Origin: Methylobacter tundripaludum
Lineage (GTDB): Bacteria > Pseudomonadota > Gammaproteobacteria > Methylococcales > Methylomonadaceae
Direction: 5' to 3'
Assembly: GCF_002934365.1 (NCBI RefSeq)
Contig: NZ_PTIY01000007.1
Span: 62,001 to 126,000 of the forward strand
Length of the DNA stretch: 64,000 bases
Below the pieces are notes generated by a model. The model searched no databases and was not told where the DNA came from. It worked only from the letters and a program-made list of their open reading frames with translations. Below, one piece after another: positions 23,208-45,195 of this stretch (position 1 is its first letter; the number at the start of each line of letters is the position of its first letter). The translations under genes and the position numbers were made by a program.

Positions 23208-24005
23208 ATGATCTTGCTTCGGCTATCCGGCATTTATCGTTTTCGCGGTTTTATTTATGAAAGCGTTCGGCGCGAGTTTGCCTCGCGCTATCGAAACTCC
23301 ATGTTGGGCGCTGCTTGGCTGGTGTTGCAGCCTTTGGCGCAAATTTTGGTGTTTACGCTTGTTTTTTCACATGTGATGCGAACGCGTCTGCCCGGGGTTG
23401 ACAGCTCTTTCGGCTATAGCATTTTCCTATGCGCCGGCCTACTAACTTGGGGGCTTTTTGCCGATATTTTGAATCGTAGCCAAAACATGTTTCTGGACAA
23501 TGCTAATTTGCTCAAGAAATTGAGCTTTCCTCGTATCTGCCTGCCTATTATCGTTAGCCTTAACGCTTGTATAGGGTTCGCCATCATTTTTAGCCTTTTT
23601 GTCGGATTTTTGTTGTTCACTGGCAGTTTTCCTGGTTGGGCGTTCTTCGCTATTGCACCGGTTCTGCTGTTGCAAATTCTTCTTGCTATTGGAATGGGCA
23701 TGGTTATTGGGGTGCTCAACGTTTTTTTCCGTGACGTCGGGCAACTTTTCGGCATTGTGTTGCAATTCTGGTTTTGGCTCACACCGATCATCTATCCGCT
23801 TGCCACATTGCCGGACTGGGCGCAGCGTATCGTGATGCTAAATCCCATGACTCCACTGGTGGTGGCCTATCAGGGCATTCTCGTTCAGGGTACGATGCCA
23901 TTGTGGGCTAGTCTATGGCCAACTGCACTATTGGCCTGCATGCTTTGTTTTCTCGGCATGCGTCTTTTTCAAAAGCACGCAGGTGAAATGGTAGACGAAC
24001 TCTGA
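23208..24005 (+). CDS. wzm: Polysaccharide ABC transporter permease (first system)
   Basis: The 265-residue protein has six hydrophobic spans and the ABC-2 layout of Wzm/KpsM permeases. The N-terminal cytoplasmic stretch VRREFASRYRNSMLGAAWLV is characteristic, as are FFRDVGQLFGIVLQFWFWLTP and the end region LNPMTPLVVAYQGIL. It would form the membrane channel exporting a lipid-linked polysaccharide. It ends on the first base of the next gene (TGATG), so it is cotranslated with its ATPase. Confidence 0.92.
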   Translation: MILLRLSGIYRFRGFIYESVRREFASRYRNSMLGAAWLVLQPLAQILVFTLVFSHVMRTRLPGVDSSFGYSIFLCAGLLTWGLFADILNRSQNMFLDNANLLKKLSFPRICLPIIVSLNACIGFAIIFSLFVGFLLFTGSFPGWAFFAIAPVLLLQILLAIGMGMVIGVLNVFFRDVGQLFGIVLQFWFWLTPIIYPLATLPDWAQRIVMLNPMTPLVVAYQGILVQGTMPLWASLWPTALLACMLCFLGMRLFQKHAGEMVDEL

Positions 24006-25339
24006 TGGGTACTATCACTGTTACACAATTAGGTAAGGCTTATCGCCAATACCCTACCCGTTGGTCTCGTCTCATAGAATGGATTATACCGGGACATAAA
24101 CCTCGGCACAGTCTCAAGTGGATACTGCAAGATATTAATTTCAGTGTCTCCCCCGGTGAAGCCGTTGGCGTTATCGGAGTTAATGGCGCAGGCAAGAGCA
24201 CCTTGCTTAAATTAATCACCGGCACTACCCAGCCAACAATCGGTTCGGTGGAGATGGAGGGGCGCGTCGCCGCACTGTTGGAATTGGGTATGGGTTTTCA
24301 TCCCGATTTTACCGGTCGGCAGAACGCCCTGATGGCAGGGCAGTTGCTCGGCTTGCAGGCACATGAAATCGATCTCCTCATGCCGGAAATTGAAGCTTTT
24401 GCAGAAATTGGCGATTACATTGACCAGGCTGTGCGCGTGTATTCTAGCGGCATGCAGGTGCGCCTTGCGTTCGCAGTGGCTACGGCTGTGCGGCCTGATA
24501 TTCTGATTGTGGATGAAGCACTTTCAGTCGGCGACGCATACTTCCAGCACAAGTGTTTTTTAAGAATCCGACGGTTTCAGGACCAAGGCACCACGCTCCT
24601 GTTTGTTTCCCACGACCTTGCTGCTGTTCGAGCCCTTTGTGCTAGAGCCATCTGGCTCGATAGTGGCGCTGTTCGTGAGATTGGTGAAACAAAAGACGTT
24701 CTTGATGCTTACGCAACGGCGCTATATGCCAAGGAACAGGATGTTGATAATGCTGCAAAGCAATCCGCAGTGAAAGACAGTGTAATAAAGGAAGTTTCCA
24801 AACAAAAACGCGATTGCAGACTTGATTTCATAAATAATTCAAATCTGAGAAACGATATCAAAGTTTTTGAATTTAATAAGGATGCGGCCCGCTGGGGAGA
24901 TGGCCTAGCAAAGATTACGCATACCTACCTGCAGGATGCTAATGGAACCCCGGTGAGTTGGATAATCGGAGGGGAAGAAGTGGTGCTTACGATCGAGGCG
25001 TTAGCTTTGCAAGAGCTATGTGGCGTATTTGTGGGGTTTATGGTCAGGGATAAGTTGGGGCAAACTCTTTTTGGCGACAACACTTACCTTACGACAATTG
25101 ATTCACCGGTGACCATAAGAGCGAATCACCGATTTAAAACAACATTTCGTTTCTTGATGCCTATATTACCTCAGGGTACTTATGCAATTACGGCTGCTAT
25201 AGCGGTTGGTACCCAACAAGATCATGTTGCTCATGAGTGGATCAATGAGGCCATTTTTATTGAGTCGCATAACGGATTTGCGGTAAGCGGGCTGGTTGGA
25301 ATACCTATGCATGCTATTGAGATTGGTGAATTCATATAG
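24005..25339 (+). CDS. wzt: Polysaccharide ABC transporter ATPase with C-terminal glycan-binding domain (first system)
   Basis: The 444-residue protein has an ATPase domain with Walker A GVNGAGKST (58-66), signature YSSGMQVRLAFA and Walker B ILIVDEALSVGD. A linker (about 245-285) leads to a Wzt-C-like beta-sandwich of about 160 residues. In known O-antigen systems this domain recognises the modified end of the chain, so export depends on chain termination. The two methyltransferase genes directly downstream are candidates for such a terminal cap; that link is inference. Confidence 0.92.
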   Translation: MGTITVTQLGKAYRQYPTRWSRLIEWIIPGHKPRHSLKWILQDINFSVSPGEAVGVIGVNGAGKSTLLKLITGTTQPTIGSVEMEGRVAALLELGMGFHPDFTGRQNALMAGQLLGLQAHEIDLLMPEIEAFAEIGDYIDQAVRVYSSGMQVRLAFAVATAVRPDILIVDEALSVGDAYFQHKCFLRIRRFQDQGTTLLFVSHDLAAVRALCARAIWLDSGAVREIGETKDVLDAYATALYAKEQDVDNAAKQSAVKDSVIKEVSKQKRDCRLDFINNSNLRNDIKVFEFNKDAARWGDGLAKITHTYLQDANGTPVSWIIGGEEVVLTIEALALQELCGVFVGFMVRDKLGQTLFGDNTYLTTIDSPVTIRANHRFKTTFRFLMPILPQGTYAITAAIAVGTQQDHVAHEWINEAIFIESHNGFAVSGLVGIPMHAIEIGEFI

Positions 25340-31580: not shown

Positions 31581-31851
31581 TGCTACTTTCGGAACTATTA
31601 CGCGCCATTTGTCGTCAAAATTTGCCCCACCTCCCTCGGTAGGTTAAAATTAACAAAGTAAGTAAGGTATAAGTAGCTATGAATAGGCGTTATTCTTATT
31701 ATCGCTACATGCGTATATGTTCATGGTGAGGGATTTCGGTCTCATTGCAGTTTAGTTCACCTGTTTCAAGTCACTTTTTTCATTACAGCCATGTCAGGGG
31801 TTAGATGTCTGCCATGGTAGTGTTGTTATGTTTTATAACCGGATGGTAATA

Positions 31852-33378
31852 ATGGATGTTTTGTTCGTCAATCCCGACTCTTCAGCTAAGGCTTATCAAG
31901 GGCTGGCAAAAGTTTATTCGGCAATAGAGCCGCCAACATGGTCTCTGTTATTAGCAGAGTCCTGTCGTTCGAAGGGGTTTGGGGTTGGTATTCTTGACTG
32001 TGATGCGGAAAGGTTGTCTCTTGAGCAATCGATACAAAGAGTCCAGGACTTAAAACCTCGTCTTGTTGTCTTCGTGGTTTACGGACAAAATCCAAATTCC
32101 GGAACTACAAGCATGATTGGTGCATTAGCAATGGCAAATGCGCTCAAAGATCACCACCCTGAACTTCCGATTTGTTTTGTTGGGTCTCATACCAGTGCGC
32201 TCCCAATGGAAGTGCTCTCTTACGACTGTGTCGATATTGTGTTGCTCAATGAAGGCGTATACGCCTTGCACAATCTTCTTAAGAGCAATCTGGGCGAAGA
32301 TTTGCAACATATCAAGGGGATTGGATACAAAAGGCGAGACGCCTCAAACGCCAGAATTCCTACGCTCAACCCGCCACAGGCGATAGTGCCGCAGGATCGG
32401 ATGGATCACGACTTGCCGGGCTATGCTTGGGATCTCCTGCCTTACCGGGAAAAGCCGTTAGATCTCTATCGCGCGCATTTTTGGCATGCAGAATTTGACC
32501 ATGATAAGCGAACCCCTTTCGCAGCGATATATACCTCGTTGGGTTGTAATTTCGGCTGTAATTTTTGCATGATCAATATCGTTAATCGCGCCGACAACGG
32601 CGATGATGTTAATGCAGCAGATTCTCGTGGGATGCGCTTCTGGAGCCCTGAATGGGTAAGCCGTGAGATGCGAAAACTCGCAGATATGGGTGTGCGCACC
32701 CTGCGAATCAGCGACGAGATGTTCTTTTTAAATCGCAGATACTATGCCCCGATACTTCAAGAGGCCATTGATCAGGATTTTGGTTTCAACATGTGGACCT
32801 ATTCCCGCGTCGATACGGTTCGTAAAGACGCGCTCGACCTGTTCAAGCGTGCAGGGGTTAACTGGCTCGCGCTTGGCGTTGAAGCAGGCAACCAATTAGT
32901 TCGCCAAGAAGTATCGAAAGGCTCCTTCCAGGAAGTCAATATTCGCGACGTCTGCAAAACGATTAATGATTCCGATATCAAAATAATCAGCAATTACATT
33001 TTTGGATTCCCTGAAGACACTATGGAGACCATGCAAGAAACATTGGATCTTGCACTGGAACTCAATACCGAAATGGCAAATATGTACCCTTGCCAAGCAT
33101 TGCCCGGCAGCCCGATGTACAACATCGCCAAGAAAAACGGCTGGGCTTTACCTGACTCCTATGAAGGTTATGCTTTCTTGTCATATGAAAGCCAACCCCT
33201 ACCGACCAAATATGTCAGCTCAGCGGATGTCTTGAGGTTCCGTGACGAAGCATGGCAAAAATACTTTACCAATCCCGCTTACCTAACGCTTGTTGAGCAA
33301 AAATTTGGCGCAGTCGAAAGAAAAAATATCGAAGATATGGCCAGCATCCACCTTAATCGTAAAATCCTGGGTGATTAA
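31852..33378 (+). CDS. B12-binding domain radical SAM protein
   Basis: ATG 31852 gives about 508 residues starting MDVLFVNPDSSAKAYQG, the usual opening of a B12-binding domain; ATG 31828 is an alternative. The B12-binding-like domain (about 1-150) lacks DxHxxG, as in many class B radical SAM methylases. The radical SAM domain has the cluster motif C-x3-C-x2-C (GCNFGCNFCMIN, cysteines at about 232, 236, 239), followed by TYSRVDTV and LGVEAGNQ. Likely reactions are methylation at unactivated carbon, or another radical rearrangement. It is followed 6 bases later by the hddA-like gene, so a sugar-related substrate is likely but unproven. Confidence 0.82.
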   Translation: MDVLFVNPDSSAKAYQGLAKVYSAIEPPTWSLLLAESCRSKGFGVGILDCDAERLSLEQSIQRVQDLKPRLVVFVVYGQNPNSGTTSMIGALAMANALKDHHPELPICFVGSHTSALPMEVLSYDCVDIVLLNEGVYALHNLLKSNLGEDLQHIKGIGYKRRDASNARIPTLNPPQAIVPQDRMDHDLPGYAWDLLPYREKPLDLYRAHFWHAEFDHDKRTPFAAIYTSLGCNFGCNFCMINIVNRADNGDDVNAADSRGMRFWSPEWVSREMRKLADMGVRTLRISDEMFFLNRRYYAPILQEAIDQDFGFNMWTYSRVDTVRKDALDLFKRAGVNWLALGVEAGNQLVRQEVSKGSFQEVNIRDVCKTINDSDIKIISNYIFGFPEDTMETMQETLDLALELNTEMANMYPCQALPGSPMYNIAKKNGWALPDSYEGYAFLSYESQPLPTKYVSSADVLRFRDEAWQKYFTNPAYLTLVEQKFGAVERKNIEDMASIHLNRKILGD

Positions 33379-33384
33379 TAAACG

Positions 33385-34380
33385 ATGATTATCACACGAA
33401 CCCCGTTCAGAATTTCTTTTTTTGGTGGCGGCACCGACTATCCAGGTTGGTATCGGGAACACGGCGGCGCGGTATTAGCAACTACTATCGACAAATATTG
33501 TTATATTACATGCCGTCGTTTGCCGCCGTTTTTCGAGCACAAGCATCGCATTGTTTACTCTCACATCGAAAACGTTTGCCATAACGATGAAATCCAGCAT
33601 CCCGCAGTGCGGGCAGCGTTTAATTGGGCTAATGTTGTCGAGGGGCTGGAGGTTCACCATGATGGCGATTTGCCTGCGCGTTCAGGCTTAGGTTCCAGCT
33701 CCGCTTTTACCGTAGGCTTGGCGCATGCATTGTATGGCCTTAACGGTAAAATGGTTAGCCAAGACACGTTGGCGAAAGATGCTATTCATATTGAACAAAA
33801 CATCATCGGCGAGAATGTCGGCTCGCAAGATCAGGTTTCGGCAGCATACGGCGGACTCAACCGCATTGATTTTCACCGAGACGACTCCTTTGATGTGGCC
33901 CCGATCATTCTTCCCGAACACAGACGCGAAGAGCTTCGTGACCACCTTATGCTTTGCTTTACCGGCTTCTCCCGCATCGCCGACGAAATTGCGAAATCCA
34001 AGATCGACAACCTCAAAAATCGCGAAACGGAACTCAAGTGCATGAGGGAAATGGTTGACGAGGCTATTGCCATTCTTACGAACATTGACGTCAGTATTGA
34101 CGAGTTTGGCAAACTGCTCGACCTAAGCTGGAAATACAAACGCAGCCTATCAGACCGGGTTTCAACCCGGGAAATCGACCAGATTTACGATCAAGCTATG
34201 CGCGCCGGTGCAATCGGCGGCAAGATTCTTGGCGCCGGCGGCGGTGGATTTATGCTGCTTTTCGCAAAACCCGATAAACATGCCGCAATTCGCGAAGCCC
34301 TTAAAGACTTGGTGCATGTATCTTTCAATTTTGATGATTCCGGCAGTCGTGTCGTACTTTATCAACCCAACGGCCTGTGA
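33385..34380 (+). CDS. hddA: GHMP-family sugar kinase, HddA-like (heptose-7-phosphate kinase)
   Basis: The 331-residue GHMP kinase shows RTPFRISFFGGGTDYPGWY at the N-terminus, the ATP loop RSGLGSSSAFTVGLAHAL, and GGKILGAGGGGFMLLFA near the C-terminus. This pattern fits D-glycero-alpha-D-manno-heptose 7-phosphate kinase (HddA); fucokinase-like relatives share it. GmhA and HddC genes in the same operon favour the heptose role: HddA would form heptose 1,7-bisphosphate. The phosphatase (GmhB) needed next is not in the window. Confidence 0.78.
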   Translation: MIITRTPFRISFFGGGTDYPGWYREHGGAVLATTIDKYCYITCRRLPPFFEHKHRIVYSHIENVCHNDEIQHPAVRAAFNWANVVEGLEVHHDGDLPARSGLGSSSAFTVGLAHALYGLNGKMVSQDTLAKDAIHIEQNIIGENVGSQDQVSAAYGGLNRIDFHRDDSFDVAPIILPEHRREELRDHLMLCFTGFSRIADEIAKSKIDNLKNRETELKCMREMVDEAIAILTNIDVSIDEFGKLLDLSWKYKRSLSDRVSTREIDQIYDQAMRAGAIGGKILGAGGGGFMLLFAKPDKHAAIREALKDLVHVSFNFDDSGSRVVLYQPNGL

Positions 34381-34383
34381 TTG

Positions 34384-35340
34384 ATGAATAAAACAGATAA
34401 AATCTTTGTTGCCGGACACACCGGCTTAATCGGCTCGGCCGTTGCCCGGCGCTTGCAAAACCAAGGATATGACAATTTGCTGTTGGCCGGTCATGCTGAG
34501 CTGGAACTGACCGATGCCGTAGCAGTGGATCGTTTTTTTGACGAGCACTCGCCTGATTATGTGGTACTGGCTGCTGGCAGAGTCGGCGGCATTATCGAGA
34601 ACCAGACCTACCCGGCTGATTTTATGAACGCCAACTTGGCGATTCAATTAAATGTACTGAAGGCGGCGCACCGCTCGGGTGTGCAAAAACTGATCCTGTT
34701 TGCATCCTCCTGCATGTATCCGCGCGAATGCCCGCAACCGATGGCGGAGACAGCGCTGCTATCAGGACATCCCGAGCCGACCAGCCTTGCCTACGCAATT
34801 TCGAAACTGGCCGGTATGCAAATGTGTCTCGCCTATAACAAGCAATATGGTGAGCAACGATTTATTCCAGTGATCCCTAATAGTGCTTTCGGCCCCAACG
34901 ATAATTTTGACCCAAAATCAGGACACGTCCTCTCGTCATTGATCCGTCGCTTCCATGAGGCGCAGCAAACTGGCGTAGAAAGTCTGACTCTTTGGGGTAG
35001 CGGCACACCGCGTCGTGAATTTATCCATACCAACGATATTGCCGACGCCTGCATCGCGCTGCTCACCGGGGACACAACCGCGCTTGAACTGCCCCTAAAT
35101 TTGGGAACCGGCAGAGATTTTTCCATTCGTGAGTTGGCTGAAACCATTGCCGGCGTAATCGGTTATTCCGGGACCATCGAATGGGATACAAGCAAACCCG
35201 ACGGCGCCCCAAGAAAATTACTCGACAGCAGTCGGCTTCGCGCCTTTGGTTGGCAACCGGCTGTAAATTTTGAAGAAGGCGTTAAAGACACCTATCAGTG
35301 GTATCTCGACAATGCATTGAGTACGGAGACCCGCTCGTGA
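34384..35340 (+). CDS. fcl: GDP-L-fucose synthase family epimerase/reductase
   Basis: ATG 34384 is chosen over TTG 34381, giving 318 residues. Features are NADP-binding VAGHTGLIGSAVARRL, FASSCMYPRECPQPM, catalytic YAISK, PNSAFGPNDNFDPKSGHVL and GTPRREFIHTNDIADA, all typical of Fcl/WcaG. The known reaction is 3,5-epimerisation and 4-reduction of GDP-4-keto-6-deoxymannose. No gmd is present, and the neighbours make GDP-heptose, so a 4-keto-heptose substrate, as for the Campylobacter and Yersinia 6-deoxy-heptose reductases, is a reasonable alternative. Confidence 0.8.
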   Translation: MNKTDKIFVAGHTGLIGSAVARRLQNQGYDNLLLAGHAELELTDAVAVDRFFDEHSPDYVVLAAGRVGGIIENQTYPADFMNANLAIQLNVLKAAHRSGVQKLILFASSCMYPRECPQPMAETALLSGHPEPTSLAYAISKLAGMQMCLAYNKQYGEQRFIPVIPNSAFGPNDNFDPKSGHVLSSLIRRFHEAQQTGVESLTLWGSGTPRREFIHTNDIADACIALLTGDTTALELPLNLGTGRDFSIRELAETIAGVIGYSGTIEWDTSKPDGAPRKLLDSSRLRAFGWQPAVNFEEGVKDTYQWYLDNALSTETRS

Positions 35341-35342
35341 AT

Positions 35343-36155
35343 ATGAGTCCTATCGATCTACGCGAGAAAGCGCATTGGGTCTGGAGAGAAACATTGGCGG
35401 TACATCGCCGGGCTCCGGAAACCCGTTTGGCTTCATCGCTCTCGTCCATCGAAATTTTCGTAGCGCTTTACTATGGCGGCGTGCTGCGTTTCGATCCCAC
35501 ACAGCCGCTTGCCGAACATCGGGATCGTTGCGTTATCAGCAAAGGGCATGGTTCAATCTGCATGTACCCGATTCTGGCTGACTTGGGCTATTTCCCGCTT
35601 GACGAATTGAAACGAGTCTGCCAAACCGGCAGCTTTCTGGGCGGAATACCGGACCCGGTGATTCCAGGTTACGAAACCGTCAACGGCTCGCTGGGCCACG
35701 GCGTGGGTGTTGCGACCGGTATGGCTTTAGGCTTGAAATGCAAAGGCAGCGATCGCAGCGTGTTTGTCGTGTCAGGCGACGGCGAATTACACGAGGGCGC
35801 AAACTGGGAAGCGATCATGTTCGCTTCGCAACATAAGCTCGATAATCTGCACCTCATCATTGATGACAACCGGATCAGTATGCTCGGCTACACAGACGAC
35901 ATTGTTAGCCACGGCTCGCTCTCCGCTCGTTTATCAGCTTTCGGCTGGGATTGCCTTGAAGTCGACGGACACGATGTCGCAGCCGTGCAGGCAGCCCTGC
36001 TGAAAATGAAAAAAAACCGCGCAGGAAAACCTAAAGCACTGATAGCCAGGACCTTGAAAGGACACGGTGTGCCCGGCCTGGAAAACGCCCCGCTTTCGCA
36101 CATCATGAACCCTAAACCGGAGCTGATTGACAGCTTGCTGGAGCAAAACCCATGA
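35343..36155 (+). CDS. Transketolase-like protein, N-terminal (ThDP-binding) subunit
   Basis: ATG 35343 (or GTG 35337, overlapping the fcl stop) gives about 270 residues. The ThDP/metal motif is clear: VSGDGELHEGANWEAIMFA followed by LIIDDNRI. Other transketolase marks are CVISKGHGSICMYPILAD and GSLGHGVGVATGMA. It covers only the pyrophosphate-binding half; the next gene encodes the rest, so the pair forms a split transketolase. Possible roles are supplying sedoheptulose 7-phosphate to GmhA, or transferring a two-carbon unit onto a keto sugar. Confidence 0.88.
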   Translation: MSPIDLREKAHWVWRETLAVHRRAPETRLASSLSSIEIFVALYYGGVLRFDPTQPLAEHRDRCVISKGHGSICMYPILADLGYFPLDELKRVCQTGSFLGGIPDPVIPGYETVNGSLGHGVGVATGMALGLKCKGSDRSVFVVSGDGELHEGANWEAIMFASQHKLDNLHLIIDDNRISMLGYTDDIVSHGSLSARLSAFGWDCLEVDGHDVAAVQAALLKMKKNRAGKPKALIARTLKGHGVPGLENAPLSHIMNPKPELIDSLLEQNP

Positions 36156-37117
36156 GCATTAAACCTCTTGCGATGCGCGACGTATTGCTCGACCGTATCT
36201 GGAGAGCAATGGCGGAAGACGCGAAGATTTACTTCGTTAGCGCCGATTTCGGCTCCCCGGTTCTCGACAAAATTCGCGCCGATTTTCCTGACCGTTTCGT
36301 CAATGTCGGGATCGCCGAACAAAATCTGATCAACATTTCTGCGGGCTTGGCGCTGGAAGGTTATACCGTCTTCGCTTACGCCATTGCCCCCTTCATTACC
36401 ATGCGTTGCTACGAGCAAATTCGGGTCAGTTTGGCACTGCTTTCTGAAGTGCGGCCGATGAACGTCAATTTGATCGGCGTGGGTGCTGGTTATAGTTATG
36501 TCGTGTCCGGGCCGACCCACCAGTGCTACGAAGACCTTACCCTGATGCGCGCCCTGCCCAATTTCAGAGTGCTTTCACCATCTGACCATATCAGTGCCGG
36601 AGCCCTGTTTGACCGTTGCGCGAGCACTAAAGGTCCAAAATACCTGCGGTTTGATGCCCAAGTGTTGCCCGTAATCTATGAGAACGGCGCTCCAGACTTG
36701 GATGTCGGTTTTCATATTCACAGCACCGGTAAGGACGTTTGCCTGATAGCGACGGGCTACATGCTGCATACCGCTCTCAACGTGGCCGCGAACCTCACCG
36801 CTGCCGGCCATTCGGTCGGAATCATAGACCTTTTCGATATTTCCAATTTTGCCGCAGACCAGCTCCAGGCCGTGCTCTCGTCTTACGCGGGCATCGTCAC
36901 TCTCGAAGAAGGTTTCCGTGGACGGGGCGGTGTCGATTCCATGTTCTTTGAATTCATTGCCCGGCGCGGCCTGTCTACCCGTATGCTCAATATTGGCGTC
37001 GAGGGAGGCTACCGCTTTGAACTCGGCTCACGTGAGGAACTGCACGAGCAGGTAGGAATCGGCCCTCAATCCGTGCTGAGCAGTGTAACAACGTTTGTAC
37101 AATCACTTTCTGATTAA
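36152..37117 (+). CDS. Transketolase-like protein, C-terminal subunit
   Basis: The 321-residue protein has the pyrimidine-binding domain with the catalytic glutamate in VGIAEQNLINISAGLALEGY, then YEQIRVSLALL and GPTHQCYEDLTLMRALPNF. A transketolase C-terminal domain (about 190-315) shows CLIATGYMLHTALNVAANL. It overlaps the N-terminal subunit by 4 bases and is followed 15 bases later by the ColD-type dehydratase. Split transketolases of this kind occur both in central metabolism and in sugar clusters; location here favours a dedicated glycan role. Confidence 0.88.
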   Translation: MSIKPLAMRDVLLDRIWRAMAEDAKIYFVSADFGSPVLDKIRADFPDRFVNVGIAEQNLINISAGLALEGYTVFAYAIAPFITMRCYEQIRVSLALLSEVRPMNVNLIGVGAGYSYVVSGPTHQCYEDLTLMRALPNFRVLSPSDHISAGALFDRCASTKGPKYLRFDAQVLPVIYENGAPDLDVGFHIHSTGKDVCLIATGYMLHTALNVAANLTAAGHSVGIIDLFDISNFAADQLQAVLSSYAGIVTLEEGFRGRGGVDSMFFEFIARRGLSTRMLNIGVEGGYRFELGSREELHEQVGIGPQSVLSSVTTFVQSLSD

Positions 37118-37132
37118 TTTGGTGAAAATAAG

Positions 37133-38302
37133 ATGAAATTTCCTTTGATGCGTAACAACATCCTGCGCGAAGATCTTGACGCAGTAATCGAACATTTGAA
37201 GCAGGACGATCCGATCCTGACTCACGGCGCCAACGTAAGAGCATTCGAAGCTGAATGGTCTGAATGGCTAGGTGTAAAATACAGCGTGTTCGTTAACTCA
37301 GGCGCATCTGCAAACCTGTTGACTATGGCGATACTGAAGATTCGTTACCCGGAAGGAGGAGAAGTCATTACTCCGCCTTTAGCATGGGTTTCGGATGTCG
37401 CATCTGTGCTGCAAAACGGATTCACGCCAGTGTTTGCGGATATTGATCCAACCACCCTGGCGATGGACCCAGCTCAGATTTTGAGCAAAATCACCGATAA
37501 AACGCGGGCGGTGTTCTTGACTCATGTACAAGGTTTCGACGGGCTGACTGACGAACTGATCGATGAACTGCAACGTCGTAATATTCCGCTGATCGAAGAT
37601 GTCTGTGAGTCCCACGGCGCTACCCACAACGGCAAACGCGTGGGCAGCATTGGCTGGATATCGAACTTTTCGTATTACTACGCCCATCATATGAGTACCA
37701 TCGAAGGCGGCATGGTCTGTACCAATGACCCTGATGTCTATCAGCAAGTCCGCATGTTACGTTCTCATGGTATGGTTAGGGAGTCTAACGACGAAAATGT
37801 ACGCGCAGCCTATATAGCTGAATATCCCGAGCTGAACCCGGACTTCATCTTCGCGTACCCAGCCTATAATACACGCAATACCGAGATTGGCGGCATTATG
37901 GGACGCAGTCAGCTTAAACGTCTGGATCAAATCGTCAAACGGCGGACTGAAAACCTGATCCGGTTTTTGGATCAAATCGATTCATCAAAATATCGTACCG
38001 ACTTCAAGTTGGAAGGATCCAGTAACTACGCCTTCAACCTTATTCTGAAAGAGCCGGATGATGCTCTAGTCGAACGCCTCATGCAAAAAATGCGCGAGTC
38101 TGGCGTCGAGTTCAGAAGAGGTAGTGCTGGCGGCGGCAACCAGATTCGTCAACCTTATCTGAAAGGTATTGTGCCTACCGGGCATCATCTTGAGTTCCCT
38201 GAAACGGAACACGTCCATTTCTATGGTTTTTACATCGGCAACTTCCCCGACTTGAAAAATGAGGAAGTAGACGAACTCTGCGCAATTATAAATTCGGTCT
38301 GA
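37133..38302 (+). CDS. DegT/DnrJ-family PLP sugar 3-dehydratase, ColD-type
   Basis: The 389-residue fold-type I PLP protein shows VNSGASANLLTMAIL, EVITPPLAWVSDVASVLQNG, the PLP-phenolate aspartate region LIEDVCESHGA and NTRNTEIGGIMGRSQL. Where aminotransferases of this family have lysine, it reads SYYYAHHMSTIEGG (His185/His186). That histidine replacement is known from GDP-4-keto-6-deoxymannose 3-dehydratase ColD and the CDP-sugar dehydrase E1, which remove the C3 hydroxyl instead of transaminating. A 3-deoxy-4-keto sugar nucleotide is therefore the expected product; the actual nucleotide sugar is inferred as GDP-linked. Confidence 0.85.
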   Translation: MKFPLMRNNILREDLDAVIEHLKQDDPILTHGANVRAFEAEWSEWLGVKYSVFVNSGASANLLTMAILKIRYPEGGEVITPPLAWVSDVASVLQNGFTPVFADIDPTTLAMDPAQILSKITDKTRAVFLTHVQGFDGLTDELIDELQRRNIPLIEDVCESHGATHNGKRVGSIGWISNFSYYYAHHMSTIEGGMVCTNDPDVYQQVRMLRSHGMVRESNDENVRAAYIAEYPELNPDFIFAYPAYNTRNTEIGGIMGRSQLKRLDQIVKRRTENLIRFLDQIDSSKYRTDFKLEGSSNYAFNLILKEPDDALVERLMQKMRESGVEFRRGSAGGGNQIRQPYLKGIVPTGHHLEFPETEHVHFYGFYIGNFPDLKNEEVDELCAIINSV

Positions 38303-38313
38303 GGTAGCGCGCA

Positions 38314-39018
38314 GTGACCTCAGCCGTAATTCTTGCAGGTGGTTTGGGCACACGTCTTCGTAGCGCCGTACCGGACTTACCCAAACCAATGGCGCCGATC
38401 AGCGGGAGGCCGTTTCTTGAGCACCAGCTCGACTACTGGATTAAACAAGGGATCAATCGATTTGTACTATCCGTTGGCTATCGATATGAGGTGATTGTTG
38501 ATCACTTTGGCAATCGGTATAAGGATGCCGAGCTTGATTACGTGATTGAGGAAACCCCGCTTGGTACGGGCGGTGGACTCTTGTTGGCCGCAGAAAAGGT
38601 CAGCAAGGACGAATCGTTTTTGCTGCTGAACGGCGACACCTATTTTGCTGTGGACTTGAAGACATTGATCGAATTTTCCTTGGCAAACGACGCGGATTGG
38701 TGCTTCTCTTTGTTTCGCACTCATGAGGAAGGGCGATACATGGGGATGGATGTTTCGCCGCAAGGGCAAATTGTCTCACTCAAGTCAGGTACTGGCCGAC
38801 CAGGCCAGCTGGCAAACGGAGGCGTGTATTGGGTTAACCCGCGCGCCTTACTCAATGAACGATTTTCACCAGGCGACAAGTGTTCTCTGGAAGACGACAT
38901 TTTCATGACTGCCATGGTTTCAGGCCAGCGCCTATTGGGCGTTGAGTTCTCGGGCGCGTTCATTGACATTGGCGTGCCTGATGACTATCATCGTGCACCA
39001 GAGCTACTTTCGTCATAA
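38314..39018 (+). CDS. hddC: D-glycero-D-manno-heptose 1-phosphate guanylyltransferase-like nucleotidyltransferase
   Basis: The 234-residue nucleotidyltransferase starts at GTG 38314 and shows VILAGGLGTRLRSAVPDLPK, PFLEHQLDYWIKQGI, EETPLGTGGGLLLA, LLNGDTYFAVDL and FIDIGVPDDYHRA. Length and pattern fit HddC, which forms GDP-D-glycero-D-manno-heptose; glucose-1-phosphate nucleotidyltransferase relatives are similar. The adjoining gmhA and the nearby hddA support the heptose reading. Confidence 0.85.
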   Translation: MTSAVILAGGLGTRLRSAVPDLPKPMAPISGRPFLEHQLDYWIKQGINRFVLSVGYRYEVIVDHFGNRYKDAELDYVIEETPLGTGGGLLLAAEKVSKDESFLLLNGDTYFAVDLKTLIEFSLANDADWCFSLFRTHEEGRYMGMDVSPQGQIVSLKSGTGRPGQLANGGVYWVNPRALLNERFSPGDKCSLEDDIFMTAMVSGQRLLGVEFSGAFIDIGVPDDYHRAPELLSS

Positions 39019-39030
39019 GAAGGACATCTG

Positions 39031-39615
39031 TTGAATACAATTGAACGACTCAAGAAAAACCTGGAAGCTTCCATACAGGCCAAGCATCAAATGCTTGCCG
39101 ATGCGGAATGCCTTGAGCTGTTTTCCAAGGCTGTAGAAACCGTCGTCGACCGCTACAAACAAGGCGGGCGTATCTATATCGCAGGCAACGGGGGCTCGGC
39201 AGCTGATGCGCAGCACTTGGCGGCCGAGTTTGTCAGTAAATTGGCGCGCGACAGGGCTCCATTACCAGCCGAAGCCCTCACAGTAGATAGCTCCATTCTC
39301 TCCGCCATCGGCAACGACTACGGCTATGAGCAGGTTTTTTCCAGGCAACTGGCCGGCAAGGCAACAACCAAGGACGTCTTCCTTGGCATAACCACTTCCG
39401 GGCGGTCCCAGAATATTCTCAAAGCACTGGAACAATGCCGTACCATGGGTATACCGAGTATTGTGTTTTGCGGCGGCGATGGCGGTCAAGCAAAAGCGAT
39501 GGCCGACCACGCGATCATTGCTCCAGGCAAAGCAACAAGCACCATTCAAGAACTGCATATCGTATTGGCGCACACGCTCTGTGAATGCGTCGAAGTGGCG
39601 ATGTTTGGCGAATAA
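39031..39615 (+). CDS. gmhA: Sedoheptulose 7-phosphate isomerase GmhA
   Basis: The 194-residue SIS-domain protein has IYIAGNGGSAADAQHLAAEFV, the GmhA signature, then DSSILSAIGNDYGYEQVFSRQL, LGITTSGRSQNIL and QELHIVLAHTLCECVE. It starts with a rare TTG (39031) after AAGAAGGA. It isomerises sedoheptulose 7-phosphate to D-glycero-D-manno-heptose 7-phosphate. The split transketolase upstream could supply its substrate. Confidence 0.92.
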   Translation: MNTIERLKKNLEASIQAKHQMLADAECLELFSKAVETVVDRYKQGGRIYIAGNGGSAADAQHLAAEFVSKLARDRAPLPAEALTVDSSILSAIGNDYGYEQVFSRQLAGKATTKDVFLGITTSGRSQNILKALEQCRTMGIPSIVFCGGDGGQAKAMADHAIIAPGKATSTIQELHIVLAHTLCECVEVAMFGE

Positions 39616-39643
39616 TTTTTTTGACAATTTAGAAAGGAACACA

Positions 39644-40582
39644 ATGAGCTACAATATTCTCGTCACCGGCGGCGCCGGCTACCTCGGTTCTACCATGGTT
39701 CCGGATCTGCTTAACGCCGGCCACAAAGTGACAGTGTTGGACAACTTCATGTTCAAGCAGACCAGCCTTAATCACGTTTGCAACAACCCAAACTTTTCTG
39801 TCGTCAAGGGCGACATTCGTCTTGAGAAGGTTATGGCGCCGTTACTCAAAAAAGCCGACATCGTTATTCCACTGGCGGCATTAGTTGGTGCTCCATTGTG
39901 TAACCTCGATCCCGTTGGCGCAACAACGATTAACCACGACGCAATCACGCTGATGATTAAGCTGCTGTCCAAAGAGCAAATCGTGCTGATGCCGACCACC
40001 AACAGTGCTTACGGCACCGGCGACGAAAACAACTTCTGCACAGAAGAATCCCCGCTACGTCCTATCTCCCAATACGCGATAGAAAAAGTAGGCATCGAAA
40101 AAGAACTGATGCAACGCGAAAACGCAATCAGCTTCCGCCTTGCCACCGTGTTTGGCATGTCGCCACGGATGCGGATTGATCTACTCGTAAATGACTTCAC
40201 CTACCGCGCCGTTAACGATCGATTCGTCGTCCTGTTTGAAGGCTACTTCAAGCGCAATTACGTGCATGTCCGTGACGTCTCACGCGCTTTCCAACACGCA
40301 ATCGTCAACTTTGACAAAATGAAAGGCGAGATATACAACGTCGGTCTTTCCGAAGCCAACGTATCGAAGAAAGAACTGTGCGAAACCATCCAGAAACAAA
40401 TTCCTGACTTTGTCTTCCTTGATGCACCCGTAGGTAAAGACCCCGATCAACGTAACTACATTGTGTCGAACGCAAAAATTGAAGCAACAGGCTACAAGAC
40501 CTCAATGTCGCTGGATGCGGGTATAGCAGAGTTGATCAAAGGCTACACTATGATCAAGAACACTCAATACGGCAACGTTTGA
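39644..40582 (+). CDS. NAD-dependent epimerase/dehydratase (extended SDR)
   Basis: ATG 39644 after AGAAAGGA gives 312 residues; the open frame runs further up but into gmhA. It has NAD-binding [15 protein letters not shown] and catalytic YAIEK. The position where 4,6-dehydratases carry TDE/TSE reads TTNSAYG, so a 4,6-dehydratase role is doubtful. An epimerase, reductase or 4-dehydrogenase acting on the module's nucleotide sugar is more likely. It is the last gene of the module; an 845-base gap follows. Confidence 0.8.
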   Translation: MSYNILVTGGAGYLGSTMVPDLLNAGHKVTVLDNFMFKQTSLNHVCNNPNFSVVKGDIRLEKVMAPLLKKADIVIPLAALVGAPLCNLDPVGATTINHDAITLMIKLLSKEQIVLMPTTNSAYGTGDENNFCTEESPLRPISQYAIEKVGIEKELMQRENAISFRLATVFGMSPRMRIDLLVNDFTYRAVNDRFVVLFEGYFKRNYVHVRDVSRAFQHAIVNFDKMKGEIYNVGLSEANVSKKELCETIQKQIPDFVFLDAPVGKDPDQRNYIVSNAKIEATGYKTSMSLDAGIAELIKGYTMIKNTQYGNV

Positions 40583-41427
40583 TTGCACGGAAGTTAATGA
40601 CACGGACTACGTTTTTGAGTTCGTCCATGTTGAGGCTGGCACTAGCGGTCTCAACGTGGCTCATAAGCCATACCTTAGAGAAAACATCAAAAACCTGTAT
40701 GTCATTGATTTAATCGCTCCGGCGTCCACCCGTTCATTTACATTTGGGTTCTTGGTCGTTGATGAAAGTGGCGCGTTTTGATACTATCTATTGAAATAGA
40801 TAGCAACCTATGCACCATCTTCGACAATTTAACCCGAACTTGTCAATCAATCGACAGACTCAGCGCCTAACTGGTTCAACATGAAATCAGTACCGACCCG
40901 GAAATCGCCACCCTCCACGAAGTGTTGTTTTTGAGAACACAGTTTTCTTCGTATTCGCAGACCACATTATTAACAAAAATGGACATCAAGTAGAGCAGTA
41001 TTTGAGAGCGGTATCTAAGGATATGGTTAGTAATAACTTCCCGACATGGATCGGATGAAATTTTTCCGTTCGCCCTGAGCTTGTCGAAGGGTGGGCGGAA
41101 AAATTTCGACCTACCGCGTCAAGCCGATCATGCTTCGACAGGCTCAGCACGAACGGATTGACGACCGAAAATAGTGATTTCTGCTTTGTGGGGAGCTCTA
41201 TCGGGGGGTGTAGTACCTCCTGTCGACGAAAACAATGTCGTATTAATCCGAATATTCAGACATACTCTTGATCCGAGGGGGCGGGGATGCTATTAAAGGA
41301 CATGATGAAAATGTTTTTTCTGTCCTGCTGAAATTGATAACCTCATAAAAAATAATCAGATTGAGAATCCCAGTACTCTGGCCATTTTATTAAAGAAACG
41401 CATGAAACAAGCAATGCCGGTAATACC
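40583..41427. other. Long intergenic region with a possible gene remnant
   Basis: No intact gene is seen in this 845-base gap. From 40590 to the stop at 40779-40781 one frame reads a protein-like string (FEFVHVEAGTSGLNVAHKPY then LRENIKNLYVIDLIAPAS) without any start, which may be the tail of a lost gene; its family was not recognised. The inverted repeat at 41066-41156 follows. The last 200 bases are AT-rich and probably hold the promoter of the second exporter group. Confidence 0.5.
41066..41156. repeat. Inverted repeat with CTGAGCTTGTCGAAG arms
   Basis: The left arm (41066-41089, CCGTTCGCCCTGAGC then TTGTCGAAG) and the complement of the right arm (41133-41156) match at 21 of 24 bases, around a 43-base centre. 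The CTGAGCTTGTCGAA core also occurs in the element at 6528-6670. This is a dispersed REP-like repeat known by its sequence in many bacterial genomes. Confidence 0.75.
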
Positions 41428-42249
41428 ATGATTACTTCAACGCAAACAACGCTGACTTTTGTTCAGTTTTTTCGCCAAGTGCTTCATCATCGTGACATGA
41501 TTCTTGCGTTAGCTGTTAGAGATTTACAAAGCAGATATGTAGGTACGTTAGGCGGGCTTATTTGGGCATTTGTTCATCCTCTTGCGATAGTTTCTGTTTT
41601 CTATTTTGTTTTTGCAGTTGGCTTTCGAGCGCAAGGGCCAGGTAGCACCCCATTTATTCTCTGGTTCGTGTGTGGTTTGATCCCTTGGTTCCTCTTCAAT
41701 GACACACTGTTAGCGATTACAAACGCTATTACCGGCAATGCGCATCTGGTTAAGAAAACTATTTTTCCAACCGAAGTCCTGCCGTTGGTACACGTTATCT
41801 CCAGTCTCTTTCCGCATTTGATTTTCATGCTGACTTTGGTTGGGATGTTGGTTTTCTTCAACGTTCCTTTTTTAGTCGAGCGTCTATTCGTTGTCTATTA
41901 TTTGCTATGCACGATTACGCTGGTACTTGGTTTGGGCTGGTTACTATCAGCACTACAGGTTTTCTACCGAGATATAGCCCAAGCGCTCACTATAATGCTC
42001 AACTTATGGTTCTGGGTAACGCCTATTGTATGGTCGCAGGAGATTGTCCCGCCAGAGTATCGCAGCCTGTTGTCTTTCAATCCTATCTTCTATATTGTTG
42101 AAGGCTATCGTGGCTTGATGATTTATAAAACAGCTGTATGGCCAAGTTTACAAGAAACGGCTTGTTTTTGGAGCATTACCCTGATTGTTCTTTTTGTGGG
42201 TATCTATGTGTTTCGCCGATTAAAGCCTGAGTTCGCCGATGTTATATAG
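41428..42249 (+). CDS. wzm: Polysaccharide ABC transporter permease (second system)
   Basis: The 273-residue Wzm/KpsM-type permease has the cytoplasmic lead ALAVRDLQSRYVGTLGGLIW, six hydrophobic spans, the FYRDIAQALTIMLNLWFWVTP region, and FNPIFYIVEGYRGL near the end. It is related to the permease at 23208 in layout but clearly different in sequence, so it is a separate system rather than a recent copy. The last codons overlap the open frame of its ATPase partner. Confidence 0.92.
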   Translation: MITSTQTTLTFVQFFRQVLHHRDMILALAVRDLQSRYVGTLGGLIWAFVHPLAIVSVFYFVFAVGFRAQGPGSTPFILWFVCGLIPWFLFNDTLLAITNAITGNAHLVKKTIFPTEVLPLVHVISSLFPHLIFMLTLVGMLVFFNVPFLVERLFVVYYLLCTITLVLGLGWLLSALQVFYRDIAQALTIMLNLWFWVTPIVWSQEIVPPEYRSLLSFNPIFYIVEGYRGLMIYKTAVWPSLQETACFWSITLIVLFVGIYVFRRLKPEFADVI

Positions 42250-42259
42250 CCAAGAAACT

Positions 42260-43603
42260 ATGAATAAAGAGATTGCCATTTCTGTTCGCCGAGTCTCAAA
42301 GAAATTCAGGCTTTTCAACTCGGCTAAAGAGCGTCTTGCCGAAGCTTTGCATCCATTCCGAAAGAAATACCATCGTGAATTCTGGGCGCTGCAAGACGTT
42401 TCTTTCGACGTTTACCGAGGCGAGATTATTGGAATTCTTGGCAAGAATGGGTCTGGTAAATCGACTCTTCTACAGATTATCTGCTCTGTTATGCAGCCCA
42501 CCGAAGGAGTGGTTGAAGTCAGTGGACGCATCTCTGCATTGCTGGAATTAGGCGCCGGTTTTAACCCTGAGTTTACCGGAAGGGAAAACGTTATCCTGAA
42601 CGGCTCCATCATGGGAATCTCGCGACAGGAGATGTTGCGCAGACTTCCTGCTATTGAAGCATTTGCCGATATTGGTGATTTTTTTGATCAGCCTGTAAAG
42701 ACCTATTCTTCCGGCATGTTTGTGCGTGTGGCATTTGCCGCGGCTATTCATGTCGACCCGGAAATACTGGTTGTTGACGAGGCGCTCAGTGTTGGCGATT
42801 CAAAGTTCCAACATCGCTGTTTTCAGCGTATCCGGGAATTTATGGAGCAGGGTAAAACCATTATAGTCGTTTCACATAGCACGGATACCTTGTTGCGAAT
42901 ATGTCACCGAGGCATTGTTTTCGATTCAGGAAAGTTAAGCCATATAGGTCCCATCGCTAGTGCGGTCAATCATTATCAGAATCTATTATTCGGGTCGCCG
43001 GATGCTGTTGAAAAATCTTCTGAACTTGTATTTGAGGACAAGAAAAATAAAGCCGAAATTTCTACCTCGTTAATCGGTGCACTATCCAATGATACCCGTG
43101 ACAAGGTGTCGGAGAAGCCGAATTACAATTCACATGAGGTGCGTTTAGGCAGTGGGGCGGCTACGATAATTGACTTCGACTTGATTTCTGCTGGGATAAT
43201 TAATCCCCACGAAATTTCGGCTCACGCAGAAACGGAGCTCATCATCAAGCTCAGGTACAATGACGACCTTACAAACACATCGGTTGGCTTTGCGCTTGTC
43301 ACGATTGATGGAACCTATGTTTTTGGGACGAACATGATCATGATGCAGGCACCGCTAATCAATGCTGAAGCAGGGCGTTGTTATGCGGTCAAATTCATGT
43401 TTACATCCCGGCTAGTGGGGGGCGAGTATTTTCTGAATATCGGCTGCAACCAGCTTGTCGATGGAACCGACATGTTTCTTGATGTTCGGCGTTCAGTCGC
43501 TCGCATCAAATTTTCCGACACGCCTAGCGTTGTCGGCTTTGTCGACCTTGGTGTTGTGCATGAGGTAATCGACCTAAATATCACTCGGAGCTGTTCGATA
43601 TGA
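42260..43603 (+). CDS. wzt: Polysaccharide ABC transporter ATPase with C-terminal domain (second system)
   Basis: ATG 42260 (MNKEIAISVRRVSKKF) is preferred; ATG 42239, overlapping the permease, is possible. The protein is about 447 residues. The ATPase domain has Walker A GILGKNGSGKST, signature YSSGMFVRVAFA and Walker B ILVVDEALSVGD. A Wzt-C-like beta domain occupies about residues 290-447 (INPHEISAHAETELIIKLRY). Two different Wzt-C domains in one locus imply two different exported glycans, or one of the systems being silent. It overlaps the next gene by 4 bases. Confidence 0.91.
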   Translation: MNKEIAISVRRVSKKFRLFNSAKERLAEALHPFRKKYHREFWALQDVSFDVYRGEIIGILGKNGSGKSTLLQIICSVMQPTEGVVEVSGRISALLELGAGFNPEFTGRENVILNGSIMGISRQEMLRRLPAIEAFADIGDFFDQPVKTYSSGMFVRVAFAAAIHVDPEILVVDEALSVGDSKFQHRCFQRIREFMEQGKTIIVVSHSTDTLLRICHRGIVFDSGKLSHIGPIASAVNHYQNLLFGSPDAVEKSSELVFEDKKNKAEISTSLIGALSNDTRDKVSEKPNYNSHEVRLGSGAATIIDFDLISAGIINPHEISAHAETELIIKLRYNDDLTNTSVGFALVTIDGTYVFGTNMIMMQAPLINAEAGRCYAVKFMFTSRLVGGEYFLNIGCNQLVDGTDMFLDVRRSVARIKFSDTPSVVGFVDLGVVHEVIDLNITRSCSI

Positions 43604-45195
43604 ACTCAGGCGCCGCACTTGTTGTCGGTTATCCACGTACCGGCTTCACCCTGCTGATCAGCGTAATTGCTGAGATTTCAAACTGCGCTAATATTGTACG
43701 GCCTAATCGCCATGCGCTGAAGGTATTCTGTGATACAGCAGGAATGCAGATATCGGAGCATATCGAGCAGGTGTTCCTGCGTCGAGGCATTTCAAATGAA
43801 CTCCTTTACAACTATAACTTCAGGCAAATGGTTGGAGGGCCGAAGTGGTTGAAAGAGGGCCGCAGTGATACCGCCTGTTTTCGTAAATACATTGGGGTCA
43901 AAGGAAAGGGGGACTTTACCCTGCTTACTTCGCACCCGCGACAGGTTCTGGATTATTACGAAATCACACATTCTCACGTTGCTCCAAGCCGGTGGGCGGC
44001 ACATCCTGGCTATGCGGAACATCAGCGATTTGCATCTATACGGCATCCTGCGGGTACGCTAGCTTCGGCCTGTTTTTCACTTAATGCGCTGGCGAGCGAA
44101 TATATACAAAAGTTTGTTCCGCCGGAACAAGATAACGATCTTCTTCGGCAGAAATTTGCGCTCTACAAGCTTTCCGACCTGAATTTTTTTGAAGCCTTGC
44201 TAAGTCCGTTTAAGGCCTATCTGGAAGAGTTTTCTCGTTGCTCGGATCAATATGTAACGATGCGCTGGGAGGATTTGATTCAAAATCCTGTAGACACGGT
44301 TCTCAAGGTTGCTGATGCAATGGGTGTCAGTATTGATCGGCAGCAGGCTGTTGAAATTTGGCACAAACTCGATCATGTCAACCTTACCGGTGCGCATAAG
44401 CATAATCTTCGTTATGGACATGGGGTTGTAAACGGGTGGAAGCTTTGGCTTACCAACACCCATCTCGATATGATGCGAGATTACGGGCTGGATGTTTTTT
44501 CGCAAGAATGGGGATATGGATCAATCGGCACCTTGGATGAAGCCGCCTACACGCCTTTCCAGAAGCAGCTTGCAAGCGCTATCAGTAATCACGAGATCAT
44601 TCGTGAATACGATGATGAAGATTTATTCGGGTTCGCGTTCAACAAATCAAATCTTGATTTGAGTCGGTTTGCATTCAAACGATACGATTGGCGAACCCAT
44701 ACTCAGATCGAACGCTCATCTTGTACAGAGGATGATCTGGTGATGGAGGTATGGGATGCCGCTGAATCTGCTTGCGATGCAATCAACCGGTCTTTGGGTC
44801 ACTGGTTCGACATTGCTGAAGCAACGAACATCCCGGACAACCCGCAGCGAATCGAGATGATGGCTATTGATCTTGCTCCGCTTTTTTGCGATTCTTCGGC
44901 GTTATCTGCATGGAAGAATACTATGTTTCAGGCGATCAGCTATGATGACATGGAGCAACGAGACGAGGGAGTATCTCCTGCCCCCGATTTGCTTTCGCAT
45001 AAGGCCATTGAGCCCGTGCTATTAGAGAGCATTGATGCTATGAACATCATCAATTACTCTGGCAAGTACTATGCCGTACCACAGTGTTTAGGGCCTATAG
45101 ACTTTCATAAACAGAATGTTGAAGCTATGTCGGGCGTGCTTGTGGCTAAAAATATGGAAGACATTTTATTCACTTTGAAAAAGAATTCGATTTGA
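43600..45195 (+). CDS. Sulfotransferase-like protein with C-terminal NII-Y module
   Basis: The 531-residue protein has a PAPS-type 5'-phosphosulfate loop VVGYPRTGFTLLISV (about residues 8-22) and a 3'-phosphate-binding motif FASIRHPAGTLASACF (about 147-162), so a sulfotransferase fold is likely. MRWEDLIQNPVDTVLKVADA fits the later sulfotransferase region. The last 50 residues are a separate module, AMNIINYSGKYYAVPQCLGP then IDF and GVLVAKNMEDIL, that also recurs in the next two genes. It would add sulfate, probably to a sugar, in the cytoplasm. The substrate is unknown. Confidence 0.75.
   Translation: MNSGAALVVGYPRTGFTLLISVIAEISNCANIVRPNRHALKVFCDTAGMQISEHIEQVFLRRGISNELLYNYNFRQMVGGPKWLKEGRSDTACFRKYIGVKGKGDFTLLTSHPRQVLDYYEITHSHVAPSRWAAHPGYAEHQRFASIRHPAGTLASACFSLNALASEYIQKFVPPEQDNDLLRQKFALYKLSDLNFFEALLSPFKAYLEEFSRCSDQYVTMRWEDLIQNPVDTVLKVADAMGVSIDRQQAVEIWHKLDHVNLTGAHKHNLRYGHGVVNGWKLWLTNTHLDMMRDYGLDVFSQEWGYGSIGTLDEAAYTPFQKQLASAISNHEIIREYDDEDLFGFAFNKSNLDLSRFAFKRYDWRTHTQIERSSCTEDDLVMEVWDAAESACDAINRSLGHWFDIAEATNIPDNPQRIEMMAIDLAPLFCDSSALSAWKNTMFQAISYDDMEQRDEGVSPAPDLLSHKAIEPVLLESIDAMNIINYSGKYYAVPQCLGPIDFHKQNVEAMSGVLVAKNMEDILFTLKKNSI

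Follow-up and report, generated by a model that had tools for sequence, protein, structure and literature searches.

Carbocyclic surface sugars such as caryose and bradyrhizose have been known for years. Caryose is a 4,8-cyclo-3,9-dideoxy-nonose (PMC9026286), and our literature searches found no paper on its origin. In 2016 the genes for the bicyclic bradyrhizose were still described as unknown, yet a gdh mutant lacks the sugar (PMC4743980); the word transketolase is absent from the main text of that paper.

Nucleotide-linked heptoses are modified in Campylobacter jejuni, where Cj1427 together with a C3-dehydratase produced GDP-D-glycero-4-keto-3-deoxy-heptose in vitro, as given in the accessible part of PMC10680097. 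This GDP-heptose modification pathway (HS:5 C3-dehydratase) resembles the gene module described below in its GDP-heptose genes, its Cj1427-type short-chain dehydrogenase/reductase (SDR) and its PLP-type 3-dehydratase, and the same 4-keto-3-deoxy intermediate is expected in both. In contrast to the module, that part of the paper names neither a ThDP ligase nor a radical SAM enzyme for C. jejuni. Precedent for ThDP enzymes acting on sugars comes from antibiotic clusters. Keto sugars receive an acetyl group from two-component α-KADH2 enzymes and, as has been proposed, a hydroxyacetyl group from split transketolases (PMC12247030). Like the enzymes of the module, the α-KADH2 enzymes and the miharamycin and amipurimycin split transketolases are two-subunit ThDP proteins that act, or are proposed to act, on keto sugars, whereas those of the module are encoded in surface-polysaccharide loci with GDP-heptose genes and include E1-like subunits that are unusually short. 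As to radical chemistry, every non-methylating B12 radical SAM enzyme known so far either forms a ring or rearranges one; one of them, OxsB, is proposed to work by two hydrogen abstractions and formation of an sp3–sp3 bond (PMC13142503).

The locus considered here lies in a stretch of 64,000 nucleotides from Methylobacter tundripaludum, referred to as the window. A B12-type radical SAM gene in this window is tied to a nucleotide-sugar pathway, a conclusion that is well supported by gene context. Our preferred explanation, to which we assign a probability of roughly 0.4, is that the pathway leads from GDP-heptose to a C4-branched nonose with a carbocycle that would be closed by the radical SAM enzyme.

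Gene organization of the locus

The radical SAM gene is the first of nine genes on the same strand (31852–40582; Table 1). The upstream glycosyltransferase ORF ends at 31580, 271 bases before it, and its own stop codon ends at 33378, so that the 6-base gap to the hddA-like gene at 33385 is as the initial annotation had described. Scans for promoters and terminators gave matches no more frequent than in shuffled sequences. A longer ORF (31828–33378, plus strand) is also open and offers an alternative start, but the alignments of relatives begin at 31852 (MDVLFV), which makes this the better start. A chance ORF is excluded because full-length relatives with 36–92% identity occur in several phyla.

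Pfam searches with the product of 31852–33378 gave 46.5 bits for the B12-binding domain (cut-off 32.1) and 69.8 bits for Radical_SAM (cut-off 29.5). The cysteines of the CX3CX2C motif are invariant in two alignments that both include the window protein (14 of 14 and 45 of 45 rows). The N-terminal B12-like domain and the cluster motif that had been pointed out earlier are thus confirmed, and together they give the protein the architecture of the B12-dependent radical SAM superfamily. Cobalamin may be a cofactor; AprD4, which is not known to contain cobalamin, shows that the fold can exist without it.

Table 1. Positions of the genes, domains and motif in the window and basis of their assignment
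Feature	Position	Strand	Basis
B12-binding-domain radical SAM protein, 508 aa	31852..33378	+	PF02310 and PF04055 above cut-off; relatives align from 31852
B12-binding domain (Rossmann-like)	31915..32277	+	PF02310, residues 30-150 counted from 31828
Radical SAM core domain	32530..33054	+	PF04055, residues 235-409 counted from 31828
CX3CX2C cysteines C232, C236, C239, presumed [4Fe-4S] cluster	32545..32568	+	read from sequence; invariant in alignments
HddA-like GHMP kinase (resembles heptose 7-phosphate kinase)	33385..34380	+	PF00288/PF08544; best NCBIfam HddA 150.7 bits, below cut-off 600
GDP-L-fucose-synthase-like SDR (epimerase/reductase)	34381..35340	+	PDB 8du0 E 6e-105; NCBIfam Fcl 399.8 bits, below cut-off 500
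Split transketolase, N-terminal (ThDP-binding) subunit	35343..36155	+	PF00456 120.5 bits (run from 35337); first in-frame ATG 35343
Split transketolase, C-terminal subunit	36152..37117	+	PF02779 and PF02780
ColD/RfbH-like PLP-dependent 3-dehydratase, aminotransferase fold	37133..38302	+	best PDB ColD 2gms E 1.2e-53; PF01041
HddC-like nucleotidyltransferase	38314..39018	+	PF00483; best NCBIfam HddC 174.7 bits, below cut-off 300
GmhA-like sedoheptulose-7-phosphate isomerase	39031..39615	+	PF13580; gmhA 172 bits, below cut-off 209
SDR related to C. jejuni GDP-heptose 4-dehydrogenase Cj1427	39644..40582	+	PDB 6vo6 E 1.5e-112 over 311 residues (2-312)
ABC exporter, Wzm/Wzt kind: membrane ORF 41428-42249, ATPase ORF 42239-43603	41428..43603	+	ATPase: ABC_tran and Wzt_C; membrane gene by position only

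The nine operon proteins are named by resemblance, since none of them reached an NCBIfam equivalog cut-off; the 3-dehydratase, for example, scored 188.3 bits with the curated RfbH model, which has a cut-off of 423 bits. In the same protein a histidine replaces the PLP lysine as in ColD (ahhmst compared to shhiat in ColD), while the otherwise similar chain 3b8x has an N at this position. The last enzyme of the operon is closely similar over its full length to a solved structure (6vo6) that we take to be Cj1427, the Campylobacter GDP-heptose C4-dehydrogenase. The heptose route requires a 7-phosphatase, and none is encoded in the operon (31852–40582); a HAD-type gene is located near 12 of the 80 best loci (out of at least 569) described below.

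Conservation of the gene context

A search of 398 genomes from the phylum to which the window belongs detected relatives of the radical SAM protein (E 1e-60 or better) in 14, its own genome among them, and the gene is present in 3 of 392 genomes of a family-level sample that represents the family of the caryose producer. A scan of GTDB genomes confirmed at least 569 places, of which the best 80 were kept, so that the context counts refer to the nearest relatives only. For these counts the 80 loci were searched by tblastn with the genes of the window and with two E1-like genes. A ColD/RfbH-type 3-dehydratase is nearby in 73 of them, hddA in 70, hddC in 62, gmhA in 30, a Cj1427-like SDR in 61 and an Fcl-like SDR in 49, the remaining 31 showing no Fcl-like gene; the counts include a few weak matches (the 3-dehydratase of L062 at 36% identity, the SDR of L103 at 24%, and the E1 matches of L097, L102 and L111 at 28–32%). 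Gene calling based on ORFs had first given E1-like genes in 31 loci and neither ThDP type in 16, because antisense ORFs hid genes; tblastn changed these to 41 and 6.

Eight genomes of the 398-genome set encode a close 3-dehydratase (E 1e-120 or better), and the radical SAM gene is present in every one of them (P about 2e-13 on the assumption of independent genomes). Six of the 14 radical SAM carriers lack the close dehydratase, and 3-deoxygenation by this enzyme is therefore not universal. The co-occurrence and the neighbourhoods of the 80 relatives give good support to the earlier proposal that the radical SAM gene heads a sugar-nucleotide module. The linkage with sugar genes recurs with varying gene order in seven phyla (Pseudomonadota, Nitrospirota, Verrucomicrobiota, Planctomycetota, Bacteroidota, Chloroflexota and Cyanobacteriota). 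This recurrence and the eight-out-of-eight association make it very improbable that the gene acts outside sugar chemistry, for example as a lipid or peptide modifier that became an operon neighbour by chance. Such a reading could draw on relatives with 23–25% identity that sit in hopanoid, bacteriochlorophyll and other loci, and on the 5 of 19 more distant loci that have no ThDP pair. Searches of plasmids with the 3-dehydratase (E 1e-80) and with the short E1α (E 1e-20) found nothing, and a phage search found only relatives with 24% identity, in a single Streptomyces phage represented by two records.

The pathway takes its shape from two features that the initial annotation did not name, the 3-dehydratase and a two-subunit ThDP ligase. 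The ligase is encoded in 74 of the 80 loci (best 80 of at least 569), as a split transketolase in 33 and as a pyruvate dehydrogenase E1-like protein (pair or half) in 41, with no locus having both. Five of the six loci without a ThDP match are contigs of 5.6–8.1 kb; the sixth, L101, has only 1.8 kb upstream, the side on which the ThDP genes lie in its phylum. On a tree of the 74 corresponding radical SAM proteins (33 with transketolase including the window, 41 with E1-like proteins) the ThDP type changes at least six times, as expected if both types fill one role. Another 19 loci, most of which belong to a more distant subfamily, encode a transketolase (10), an E1-like enzyme (4) or neither (5), and none has both.

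The E1-like subunits match pyruvate dehydrogenase E1 α and β in Pfam and NCBIfam, with NCBIfam scores below the cut-offs. The α subunits are unusually short, with 196–204 residues in 36 of 36 matches; the β subunits have 176–252 residues in 23 of 38 matches, and a frame walk did not resolve the other 15. At L061:3835–4977 and similar loci the α and β proteins have about 199 and 178 residues and the usual C-terminal transketolase domain is missing. From its sequence, this E1 pair would be a very small two-subunit ThDP enzyme.

The radical SAM gene also varies. In three loci it encodes a protein that is only 36–40% identical to the window protein among otherwise close genes: in L023 the 3-dehydratase is 84% and the transketolase 75–78% identical, in L032 these values are 83% and 74–77%, and in L142 the 3-dehydratase, Fcl-like SDR and hddA product are 77%, 64% and 67% identical. 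Such divergence on a close backbone suggests that the radical step is exchanged on one set of genes.

Relation to other B12-dependent radical SAM enzymes

Orthology with the hopanoid enzyme HpnJ or the bacteriochlorophyll enzyme BchE would speak against the proposed sugar function. It was looked for and is ruled out by scores and phylogeny. HpnJ is the best-scoring curated model (TIGR03471), with 120.6 bits for the window protein and a cut-off of 577.6, and BchE (TIGR02026), also among the top NCBIfam models, gave 85.1 bits with a cut-off of 481.35. In a 42-row tree the radical SAM family forms one 28-row clade with 100/100 support, which extends from the window protein to sequences of Azospirillum and Solidesulfovibrio, and the two HpnJ and two BchE rows, whose long outgroup branches call for caution, fall outside. 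The HpnR model has a single, weak match in the window's own genome, which is the radical SAM gene itself. Resemblance to HpnJ and BchE is weak, because 6 of 10 other proteins of the B12 radical SAM kind likewise have one or the other as their best-scoring model, and for the same reason the HpnJ score was given up as proof of ring chemistry. HpnJ, which catalyzes the last step to bacteriohopanetetrol cyclitol ether, does share with the window protein the B12-binding and radical SAM domains and action on a sugar unit, but besides the score and the separate clade it differs in that the operon has no hopanoid genes.

An AlphaFold2 model built on 45 rows (pLDDT 83.5, pTM 0.86) gave the best fold match with AprD4 (Z 26.2 over 402 residues), with MgmA (24.0), CysS (23.6), TsrM (22.9), OxsB (22.8) and TokK (21.3) also among the matches. 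Because these include dehydratase, methyltransferase and ring-contraction enzymes, the fold does not pick a chemistry. Moreover, HpnJ and BchE were absent from the matches of the PDB searches, and the ranking is bounded by solved structures, so that no function can be read from it. OxsB, a nucleotide-sugar ring-contraction enzyme, is similar to the window protein in fold over 419 residues and serves as a model for radical formation of an sp3–sp3 C–C bond with cobalamin (available part of PMC13142503). It differs in length (about 730 compared to 508 residues), shares 16% identity and acts on a deoxynucleotide.

The radical SAM 1,2-diol dehydratase AprD4 from apramycin biosynthesis is also the best PDB sequence match (6fd2, E 1.6e-11) and Foldseek match (E 3.1e-20). 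Since its substrate is a sugar, an AprD4-like reaction can be considered, in which the branched sugar would lose a hydroxyl group at C6 or C7 and one of the SDRs in the operon would serve as reducing partner. However, the window protein scores only 56.4 bits with the AprD4 family model (NF033070, cut-off 500), the motif is C-x3-C-x3-C in AprD4 but C-x3-C-x2-C in 45 of 45 rows of the window family, and the top rank of AprD4 is subject to the structural bias noted above. We regard this reaction as improbable.

A better case can be made for C-methylation, which the initial annotation had suggested; the enzyme would then be a methylcobalamin-dependent C-methyltransferase that places a methyl group on an unactivated carbon of the branched GDP-sugar. 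B12 radical SAM enzymes are predominantly tied to methylation, according to the available part of PMC13142503, the model resembles TsrM, MgmA, CysS and TokK in fold (Z 21–24), and the PhpK-type P-methyltransferase model (TIGR04479) gave 82.7 bits, nearly equal to the BchE score. Yet the cut-off is 600 for PhpK and was reached for no methylating family, and in branched sugars that are known, such as caryose, the additional carbons already come from pathways of the E1 or transketolase type. Methylation is therefore considered unlikely, though less so than diol dehydration.

Proposed pathway

The gene content suggests a possible sequence of reactions. GmhA, HddA, a 7-phosphatase encoded elsewhere and HddC would produce GDP-D-glycero-manno-heptose. 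The Cj1427-like SDR would oxidize C4 of this GDP-heptose, after which the ColD/RfbH-like enzyme could take off the 3-hydroxyl group to give GDP-4-keto-3-deoxy-heptose. The two-subunit ThDP enzyme would then place a two-carbon unit on the C4 ketone, both the transfer and its position in the order being inferred; the split transketolase of the window would deliver a hydroxyacetyl group and the E1-like pair an acetyl group. Where present, the Fcl-like SDR may reduce the new branch ketone. Since the SDR and 3-dehydratase would offer a C4 ketone and the ThDP enzyme would add two carbons to it, a C4-branched nine-carbon sugar is expected, and we consider it probable that the pathway of the operon makes such a sugar in GDP-linked form. 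It would be destined for a surface polysaccharide exported by the ABC transporter.

The radical SAM enzyme presumably acts after these steps, on the branched sugar. Caryose can be dissected into C1–C7 from a heptose, C8–C9 from an acetyl group at C4, a 3-deoxy position and a C7–C8 bond, and only this bond lacks an enzyme in the module. Caryose is our best guess for a product that fits the E1-type version of the module. In the mechanism that we favor, the radical SAM enzyme would join C7 of the heptose to the branch by oxidative C–C bond formation, with a radical mechanism like that of OxsB or HpnJ, to give a carbocycle as in caryose. Ring closure is assigned to this enzyme because it is the step left over and because ring formation or rearrangement is what the known non-methylating members of the superfamily catalyze; the assignment is tentative.

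If one backbone can be combined with either ThDP type and either radical SAM subfamily, each combination could yield a different carbocyclic or branched sugar. A broader and somewhat more doubtful possibility is that the module represents a widespread, as yet unnamed pathway to carbocyclic surface sugars of the caryose kind, in which the enzyme couples C7 to the branch carbon and both ThDP types and radical SAM subfamilies are swapped. If true, the module would be a route to such sugars and the radical SAM proteins a new sugar-acting family within a superfamily whose non-methylating members are little understood. Annotation of at least 569 genome loci would follow. Carriers among Methylomonas, Bradyrhizobium and Nitrosospira isolates, for instance the cultured Methylomonas sp. 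LW13 and Nitrosospira sp. Nl5, make a direct test possible.

Comparison with the bradyrhizose locus

A search with a published gdh primer, allowing up to three mismatches, picked 13 of 265 Bradyrhizobium genomes. A reversed control pattern matched seven genomes, and single primer matches therefore prove little; both published primers match exactly in the Bradyrhizobium genome L127. Twelve of the 13 loci were fetched (L127–L138), and in all twelve gmhA, a nucleotidyltransferase, an SDR and a split transketolase surround gdh. The locus in L127 (7287–12480) also holds zinc alcohol dehydrogenase, methyltransferase and HldE-like genes.

The gdh cluster for the bradyrhizose O-antigen of photosynthetic Bradyrhizobium thus shares gmhA, the nucleotidyltransferase, SDRs and the split transketolase with the module, but has zinc alcohol dehydrogenase, methyltransferase and HldE-like genes instead of the radical SAM gene, hddA and the 3-dehydratase, no match to the latter two being present in the twelve loci. 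A radical SAM relative (E 1e-30) was found in none of the 13 primer-picked genomes, while three carriers searched alongside did match, which rules out bradyrhizose as a product of this radical SAM family. The gdh locus is a candidate for a route to bradyrhizose from a heptose and a two-carbon unit. The recurrence of heptose genes and a split transketolase in the locus of a carbocyclic sugar supports the carbon logic of the module. At the same time, its lack of a radical SAM enzyme indicates that ring closure need not be radical.

Further observations on surface-polysaccharide genes

The initial annotation remarked that B12 radical SAM enzymes are rarely discussed in O-antigen clusters. This agrees with the literature: title and abstract searches of open-licence papers for radical SAM together with O-antigen, transketolase, heptose or branched or carbocyclic sugars gave no paper on such a module. 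Two neighbouring but different radical SAM genes of the B12 type lie among glycosyltransferase and epimerase genes on a plasmid of Eleftheria terrae (L162:948–3997), which is another possible use of the superfamily in surface sugars. A BchE-like radical SAM gene on plasmid pDCAR1 of Solidesulfovibrio carbinolicus (L150:2920–4389; 203 bits, below the cut-off) stands between a glycosyltransferase and a sialate O-acetylesterase gene.

In the window, a remnant of a Nudix hydrolase gene is located at 40918–41413 (plus strand) as three pieces in different frames. The gene is intact in the nearest relative, another Methylobacter (L034:10081–10659), and a Nudix gene occurs near 8 of the 80 loci (best 80 of at least 569). 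The surface-polysaccharide region encodes two Wzt-type ATPases with a Wzt_C domain (24005–25339 and 42239–43603), and therefore two glycans are possibly exported. The gene at 43600–45195 encodes a protein of 531 residues with no Pfam match, relatives of which (35–40% identity) are found near some radical SAM loci (L020, L028).
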